A DNA stretch of 44,466 nt from Candidatus Poribacteria bacterium (GTDB lineage Bacteria > Poribacteria > WGA-4E > WGA-3G): the NCBI GenBank assembly GCA_012270795.1, contig JAAXHO010000107.1:1-44466 (forward strand), given 5' to 3'. Below are positions 35,689 through 37,651 of this stretch, piece by piece (the stretch's first letter is position 1; each line of letters begins with the position of its first letter). The notes beneath the pieces are model-generated. The model saw only the letters and a program-made list of their open reading frames with translations. It had not been told where the DNA came from and ran no database searches. Made by a program: the position numbers and the translations under genes.

Positions 35689-35863
35689 TGACAAAGCTGC
35701 TGATACCTATATGCCAAAAAAACTACAAATGGAATAAATTCTTTTGAATGCTCAATTGACTTTATGTACGAATTTCCATGTTGATTGAGCAGTATACCTA
35801 TTAATGAAATATACAATGTTTGAATCACTTATAAATAAAAACAGTCCTATCGTGCATATCAAT

Positions 35864-36889
35864 ATGAAGATCTATCATGTTCTGTTAATTTACATATTCC
35901 TGTTCATGTTATTTTCAATCACATTCAACGCAACAGCAGAAAATGAGATCGATCCTATACGAACCCTATTGCCCTATGATGCGATTCCAGCCATCACAAA
36001 GCCGCAATTTGTGTCTGCGACTGAAGCAAAATTAGATATAGATGCGCCCGTTATAGGAGTGACGTTTAACGGCGAAAGTCATGCTTACTCGCTTTACCTA
36101 CTGAACGGACATGAGATTGTCAATGATGTTGTCGGTGGAAAGAAAATTGCTACTACATGGTGACCCCTCTGCAAAACGGCTATCGTGTATAGTCGTGAAC
36201 TTGATGGTAAAACCTACACCTTTGGTGTAAGTGGAAAATTATGGCGTGATGCCTTGTTGATGTATGACCATCAAACGCGATCGCTATGGGCACACATCAC
36301 AGGAGAGGCAATACAGGGAAAACTGAAAGGTAAGAAATTGACACCGCTTATATCTATGCCGCAGATTGCATGGAAAACATGGATGGCAAATTACCCACAG
36401 ACAAAAGTGTTGTCCATAAAAAAACTTGAAAGTCGAGAGAATGATAATTATGCTGACTATCACAAGAGTCAACGTGCAGGAGTAAGCGGCACCCAATACA
36501 CAGACAAGAGATTACTCAATAAATCCCTTGTGATTGGCGTTCAATTTGAAGACAAAAACGGAAAGAAACATTATCGTGCCTATCCACTCATTCAATTTGC
36601 AGAAACAGCGATAATCCAAGACACAGTTAACGGTGTGCCTTTGCTAATCTTTCATAGCAAAGATTCTTTTGCAACTGCTGTCTACAAACGCACTGTAGAT
36701 GGAAAGGTTGAGAACTTTGAGATCAAAGATGATTACCTTAGCCAAGACAGTCAAGGTAGACAATGGAATCTCATTACAGGTAAGGCTAAGCAACAGGATG
36801 ATGTCTCTTTGGAGCGGTTAACCGCACTCAACATTTATTGGTTTGCTTGGGCACGCTTCTATCCTGAAACATCAATCTACAAACCGTAA
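35864..36889 (+). CDS. Exported DUF3179 protein with in-frame TGA at the CxxC cysteine: candidate selenoprotein
   Basis: Read through the TGA at 36161-36163, the gene encodes 341 residues with selenocysteine as residue 100. A signal peptide (MKIYHVLLIYIFLFMLFSI, cleavage near ATA-EN) points to a location outside the cytoplasm. The mature protein carries DUF3179 hallmarks: HEIVNDVVGGK, then TW-[TGA]-PLCKTAIVYSRELDGKTYTFGVSGKLWRDALLMYDHQTRSLW. In other family members this reads TW/TY-CPLC, so TGA replaces the first cysteine of CxxC, giving a Sec-x-x-Cys pair. Both sides of the TGA are in frame, well conserved and not decayed. A SECIS-like hairpin lies at 36176-36196. TGA is a true stop elsewhere in the window, so general reassignment is excluded. 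No Sec machinery genes (selA, selB, selC, selD) are in the window. Alternatives are a one-base error or a recent nonsense mutation. The start could also be ATG 35804. Confidence 0.75.
36176..36196 (+). promoter_or_regulatory. Candidate bacterial SECIS stem-loop
   Basis: ACGGCUAU (36176-36183) pairs with AUAGUCGU (36189-36196) over 8 bp (one G-U pair) around a five-base loop CGUGU. Exactly 20 bases separate the TGA from the loop, and G is the second loop base. This agrees with the bacterial SECIS pattern as I recall it: apical loop some 16-37 nt after UGA and G in the first two loop positions. Part of the stem encodes conserved residues (TAIVY), so chance cannot be ruled out from one sequence. 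Confidence 0.6.
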
Positions 36890-37651
36890 TCAATCGTCCA
36901 ATTCAACGACTTCTCCTGTCATATCCCTATGCATTGTGGGACGGATAACCAATTCCGGTATGTTGCTGCGTTTAGGCAGCGTCGCGATGAGAAGGATTGC
37001 ATCAGATGTCTCAGCAACATCAACCATCATCGTGCGCGCATCAGAATTCGGTGGAATTGGACGGTTGTCCAGAATCGGCGTTGCAACTTCACCTGGAATT
37101 ATCACACTTGCTCGGATACCAGTATTCCTTAAGTCATTGTTCAGGAATTCTGTAAAGTTGATGACACCTGCTTTTGCTGCACCATAAGCAAAACCACTAA
37201 ATGGGCCTGGTGTTACTGCTGCAAGCGATGAGATGTTGATAATCGTTCCCGATTTCGCTTTCAGCATAGTTGGTACAACCGCTTGCGTGCAAAAAAACGC
37301 ACCTATCAGGTTTGAGTCAACGACTGAGCGAACCTCCTCAGGTGTCGTATTGAGGATCCTGCGATTAAACGAACTGTGTCCCGCATTGTTCACAAGCACA
37401 TCAACCTGACCGAATCTCCCAATCACAACGTCAACCATCTTATGAGCAGCATCATAGTCAGCAACATCAAGAGAACAGCTCAAAGCTGTTCCGCCAGATG
37501 TGGTTATTTCAGCTTTGACAGCATCCAGTTTGGCTTCAGTTCTACCGACAATGACCACTTTAGCACCCTCTTGTGCCATTTTTATGGCGGCATCACGTCC
37601 GATTCCACTCCCGCCACCTGTAATGATACATACCTGTTCTTTTAATCTCAT
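36890..37651 (-). CDS. SDR-family oxidoreductase
   Basis: The 253-residue short-chain dehydrogenase has the cofactor-binding ITGGGSGIG (about 9-17), the structural NNAG, the catalytic serine in INISSLAA and the YGAAK active-site pair. The basic residues after the first strand (VGRTEAK) suggest NADP or NAD; this was not resolved further. Members reduce or oxidise sugars, steroids and fatty acyl chains; no specific substrate is seen. Its stop abuts that of the DUF3179 gene with no spacing. The AGGAG-like start region at 37651 is preceded by GGAGATG. Confidence 0.88.
   Translation of the reverse strand: MRLKEQVCIITGGGSGIGRDAAIKMAQEGAKVVIVGRTEAKLDAVKAEITTSGGTALSCSLDVADYDAAHKMVDVVIGRFGQVDVLVNNAGHSSFNRRILNTTPEEVRSVVDSNLIGAFFCTQAVVPTMLKAKSGTIINISSLAAVTPGPFSGFAYGAAKAGVINFTEFLNNDLRNTGIRASVIIPGEVATPILDNRPIPPNSDARTMMVDVAETSDAILLIATLPKRSNIPELVIRPTMHRDMTGEVVELDD

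Follow-up and report, generated by a model that had tools for sequence, protein, structure and literature searches.

The gene at positions 35,864 to 36,889 of the window (the whole 44,466-nt stretch of DNA analysed) very probably encodes a genuine poribacterial selenoprotein of the DUF3179 family, in which a UGA codon is recoded as selenocysteine (Sec). The protein would be exported and would carry a Sec100/Cys103 redox centre, with the second of its two repeats degenerate. Sec insertion at this UGA is strongly supported, and the case is about as strong as sequence evidence allows. The earlier note had read the TGA as Sec. This has been borne out by the presence of the TGA across the phylum, by constraint and covariation in the SECIS hairpin, and by selB, tRNA-Sec and selD in the same genome. 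The features of the locus are as follows.

35864-36889, plus strand: DUF3179 selenoprotein gene, 341 residues, Sec at residue 100, ending in TAA
35864-35938, plus strand: putative signal peptide, MKIYHVLLIYIFLFMLFSITFNATA, read from the sequence
36038-36418, plus strand: first repeat, residues 59-185, carrying the Sec site (hhalign)
36161-36163, plus strand: predicted Sec codon UGA, first position of [U/C]-P-L-C, residue 100 in ATTW-U-PLC
36170-36172, plus strand: codon of Cys103, the second Cys position of UPLC, Ala in three Sec homologues
36176-36196, plus strand: predicted SECIS hairpin of 8 bp, ACGGCTAT-CGTGT-ATAGTCGT as DNA, with a 5-nt loop at 36184-36188
36515-36886, plus strand: second repeat, residues 218-341, without Cys or Sec at the equivalent site (hhalign)

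The reading frame is uninterrupted except for the one TGA, and the standard code (table 11) breaks it into two open frames. Against PF11376 (DUF3179), the read-through protein aligns with positions 2-292 of the 292-position profile (E 3.4e-74, 250 bits against a cut-off of 27), in agreement with the earlier description of a lone TGA at the first Cys of the DUF3179 CxxC motif. No NCBIfam profile scored above its cut-off with the protein. There is an alternative in-frame ATG at 35804, 5′ of the preferred start; the start at 35864 is favoured because the signal peptide is then N-terminal. A lipobox takes the place of the signal peptide in 11 of 68 orthologues by pattern match. Given the signal-peptide-like N-terminus, and the lipobox in a minority of orthologues, the selenoprotein is likely to be exported. 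An exported redox protein, as proposed earlier, is likely, although we infer both the export and the redox role.

The AlphaFold2 model of the protein is confident, with a pLDDT of 91.7 and a pTM of 0.87, and mostly beta. The two halves of the family alignment are homologous by hhalign (probability 99.8%, E 1e-29; 0.1% for the reversed control), and the family is therefore regarded as an internal duplication. The first repeat modelled alone reached a pLDDT of only 39 and was of no use. A glycine-rich, collagen-like insert of GADGQxG repeats is found in the second half of DUF3179 in some orthologues (L080, L082, L083 and L086). A sequence search of the PDB with the family alignment found no relatives, and a Foldseek fold search of the PDB with the AlphaFold2 model gave nothing below E 0.001. 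Spindlin, at the top of the fold search, was rejected (TM about 0.1, rmsd 16-18). Rieske ferredoxin domains alone give matches that make geometric sense (probability 0.94-1.00, E 0.04-0.3), with an rmsd of about 3-5.5 and, for single-domain targets, a TM of target of 0.46-0.59. A separate fold match is an uncharacterised protein of the giant virus Indivirus ILV1 (BFVD A0A1V0SD44; E 2.8e-9, TM of target 0.69).

A Rieske-like fold is a possible lead from the Rieske matches, on weak evidence. The likeness to Rieske-type ferredoxin domains such as NirD and naphthalene dioxygenase ferredoxin would extend over 85-118 columns. DUF3179 differs from these in having two tandem repeats and no CxH/CxxH, and the E-value is not significant. 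It is conceivable, though doubtful, that DUF3179 consists of tandem Rieske-like beta folds in which the cluster-binding loop was turned into a Sec/Cys catalytic site. This would make the protein an exported selenol/thiol oxidoreductase of non-thioredoxin fold, kept as a selenoprotein in one old lineage that spans about eight bacterial phyla and in nearly all Poribacteria.

The catalytic role put forward is that of an exported selenol/thiol oxidoreductase. Sec100 and Cys103 on the first repeat would form the redox centre, in which a selenenylsulfide is formed and then reduced, with Cys103 as the likely resolving residue. The second repeat would be a degenerate copy, probably with a structural or substrate-binding part. 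An alternative that accepts the selenoprotein, and appears rather unlikely, is that the Sec100/Cys103 pair serves as a ligand for a metal or cofactor, the protein being a metal handler or electron carrier and not a thiol-type oxidoreductase. The Rieske matches would fit such a role, as would the residues E84, N87 and D88, which are invariant and lie near the Sec site in sequence. Against it stand the high Foldseek E-values and the absence of the Rieske ligand pattern CxH...CxxH, the family alignment showing only H83-E-x-x-N-D and [U/C]PLC. In addition, three Sec proteins have UPLA (L142, L166 and L184), with Ala in place of the second Cys, and could not hold a cluster through both positions. 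These variants bear on the oxidoreductase reading as well: they show that the second Cys can be dispensed with, and a simple dithiol-like mechanism for UxxC may not apply to all members. A Scalindua protein (L143) has CPLA, with a lone Cys at the site.

DUF3179 is present in 75 of 85 Poribacteria genomes, and 69 of these 75 have TGA at the aligned codon. The remaining six carry only Cys copies or fragments. By locus, the codon is TGA in 69 cases and TGC or TGT in 16, the latter paralogues or homologues. The alignment of homologues proposed in the earlier note found TGA at the same Cys codon in 69 phylum members, and the genes of the relatives are not the decayed ones considered there. Compared with its nearest relative, at 93% identity, the gene has a dN/dS of 0.046 on the 5′ side of the TGA and 0.070 on the 3′ side. 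The 3′ part is therefore selected much like the 5′ part, and purifying selection, as judged from these ratios, carries on beyond the TGA.

The hairpin downstream of the codon reads ACGGCUAU-CGUGU-AUAGUCGU as RNA, with G at loop position 2 and 20 nt from UGA to loop. RNA folding returns the identical 8-bp helix (-11.1 kcal/mol for 55 nt, -8.0 for the hairpin stretch), as the earlier note had described it. Bacterial SECIS elements are expected to have a loop of 3-9 nt, a stem of 4-16 bp, G in the first two loop positions, a distance of 16-37 nt from the UGA and an MFE of -7.5 kcal/mol or below (PMC13188914). The hairpin falls within all of these numerical limits. Rfam gave nothing at the gene but a snoRNA match of chance level. 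The folding energy is unremarkable by itself (z -1.5 against dinucleotide shuffles), and the case for a SECIS element therefore rests on comparison.

When the gene is randomly recoded with synonymous codons, all eight pairs form in 0.23% of cases. The peak of synonymous constraint in the gene coincides with the SECIS. Among 65 TGA orthologues, codons 104-110 have a mean codon entropy of 0.08 of expectation, against 0.77 elsewhere, and are the lowest of 225 windows across the gene for synonymous variation. T105, I107, V108 and Y109 use one codon only wherever the residue is retained in these orthologues. The rarity of the helix among recodings and the minimum in synonymous variability together argue that the hairpin did not arise by chance.

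The comparison was extended outside the phylum by scanning a single genome for each species and taking the best 80 loci. The helix is retained through compensatory changes in Sec homologues of about seven other phyla. In 20 distinct TGA sequences from outside Poribacteria, among these best 80 loci, a mean of 6.65 of 7 helix positions are paired, against 4.47 expected from synonymous recoding (SD 0.21, maximum 5.2 in 2000 trials). RNAalifold finds the same helix without constraint. Across phyla 95% of cells are paired, and compensatory changes occur at four of the seven pairs (28 cells against a shuffled mean of 8.9). The covariation score is 0.471; the shuffled mean is 0.141 and none of 500 shuffles, which ignore relatedness, reach 0.471, while slid versions, which do not ignore it, stay at or below 0.144. 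Cys homologues serve as a third control and lack the SECIS helix, with 1-5 of 7 positions paired. Loop position 2 is G in 75 of 75 distinct TGA sequences. SelB bound at the hairpin would bring Sec-tRNA(Sec) to the UGA, and by this delivery the ribosome would read the codon as Sec.

That the gene is a pseudogene or the product of a sequencing error, with the TGA a true stop or a misread TGC or TGT and the downstream frame a relic, is highly improbable. Such a reading agrees with the two open frames given by table 11, but is refuted by the identical TGA in orthologues from 69 independent genomes, and is opposed by the low downstream dN/dS and the conserved SECIS.

The genome of the recoded gene also encodes selB (353 bits against a cut-off of 242). 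The tRNA-Sec gene (78.5 bits) adjoins selB, just downstream on the same strand, and ARAGORN reports it as SeC with anticodon TCA. The selD gene of the same genome (G000 contig C161; L112 1399-2445, minus strand) has one in-frame TGA, at residue 17 in KCAGUASK, and SelD is predicted to be a selenoprotein itself. The earlier note had listed selA, selB, selC and selD as genes to look for, and the absence of selB or selC as grounds for rejecting its reading; selB, selC and selD were found and selA was not found in this draft genome (298 contigs, 95% complete). Sister species have selA, and a DNA search of this genome with the locus from one of them found only short or low-identity stretches over selA. 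Among 85 genomes of the phylum, selA scored above cut-off in 72, selB in 76 and tRNA-Sec in 72. An assembly gap is likelier than loss, given the 298 contigs, the 95% completeness and the selA of the sister species, and since the gaps in the phylum are scattered over draft assemblies, the likeliest reason is that a contig is missing.

Genome-wide reassignment of TGA to Trp, Gly or Cys would also account for an in-frame TGA that is read, but it has next to no probability and is refuted, as the earlier note held, by the ordinary use of TGA as the stop of 10 of 38 likely genes in the window, with DUF3179 orthologues having TGA only at the Sec codon (within the matched region) and the genome holding a dedicated tRNA-Sec and SelB.

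Among the best 80 loci outside the phylum, TGA members were found in Chloroflexota, Nitrospinota, Planctomycetota (Anammoxibacter), Fidelibacterota (Marinimicrobia), Eiseniibacteriota, Acidobacteriota (Sulfidibacter) and a metagenome record labelled Bacillota. A tree built from 100 proteins has one group (support 95/88) that unites 35 Sec with 3 Cys proteins and covers about eight phyla. The Cys proteins inside it belong to a Dehalococcoidia, an Acidobacteria and Scalindua, and look like Sec-to-Cys changes. The motif UHLC marks a second Sec lineage, which lies on a long branch among Cys proteins and consists of distant phylum members. Its loci, assigned by tree placement, are:

L093, 4061-5032, minus strand: UHLC Sec locus
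L094, 4004-4891, minus strand: UHLC Sec locus
L095, 3146-4033, minus strand: UHLC Sec locus

At least five Sec/Cys changes are needed on the tree. Their direction and order are tentative, as the tree has no root and its sampling is biased towards proteins close to the query.

An SDR-family gene (36890-37651, minus strand) lies just downstream of DUF3179 in convergent orientation, as it does at most Poribacteria loci. In the relatives, DUF3179 was not seen next to the min genes that lie upstream of it here, and no shared neighbour was seen at DUF3179 loci outside the phylum. The gene neighbourhood gives no clue to function.

The earlier note had presented the gene as a new, undescribed DUF3179 selenoprotein, and this claim does not stand. 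Two reviews (PMC9312934, PMC13188914) already include DUF3179 (pfam11376), with the motif UxxC/T, in their tables of selenoprotein families. In their entries for the family, both refer to work on the Olavius algarvensis symbiont (Zhang & Gladyshev 2007). The poribacterial gene adds to a known selenoprotein family and does not open a new one. Among the papers searched, none pairs ‘selenoprotein’ with ‘Poribacteria’. What is new is the near-universal Sec DUF3179 in Poribacteria, the UPLA variants without the second Cys, and the internal duplication with the Sec/Cys site kept in the first repeat only. Also new are a single Sec clade that spans about eight phyla and a second, deep Sec lineage, both as placed by the tree. 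The possible Rieske-like fold, for which the evidence is weak, would be a further addition. The work corrects a gene that appears as two under the standard code, and the genomes point to a functional selenocysteine system and a selenoprotein that is near-universal across the phylum Poribacteria. With its well-conserved SECIS family and duplicated domain architecture, DUF3179 is now more accessible to functional tests.

Cys-type DUF3179 proteins (CPLC/CPEC), found in archaea, Chloroflexota and others, have the same domain with Cys aligned to Sec, but are without the SECIS hairpin and fall mostly outside the main Sec clade. The tabulated DUF3179 selenoprotein, compared here by its table entry, shares with the poribacterial protein the Pfam family and Sec at the first Cys of CxxC. 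It differs in being given as UxxC/T, whereas the protein described here is near-universal in Poribacteria and has homologues with UPLA and UHLC.
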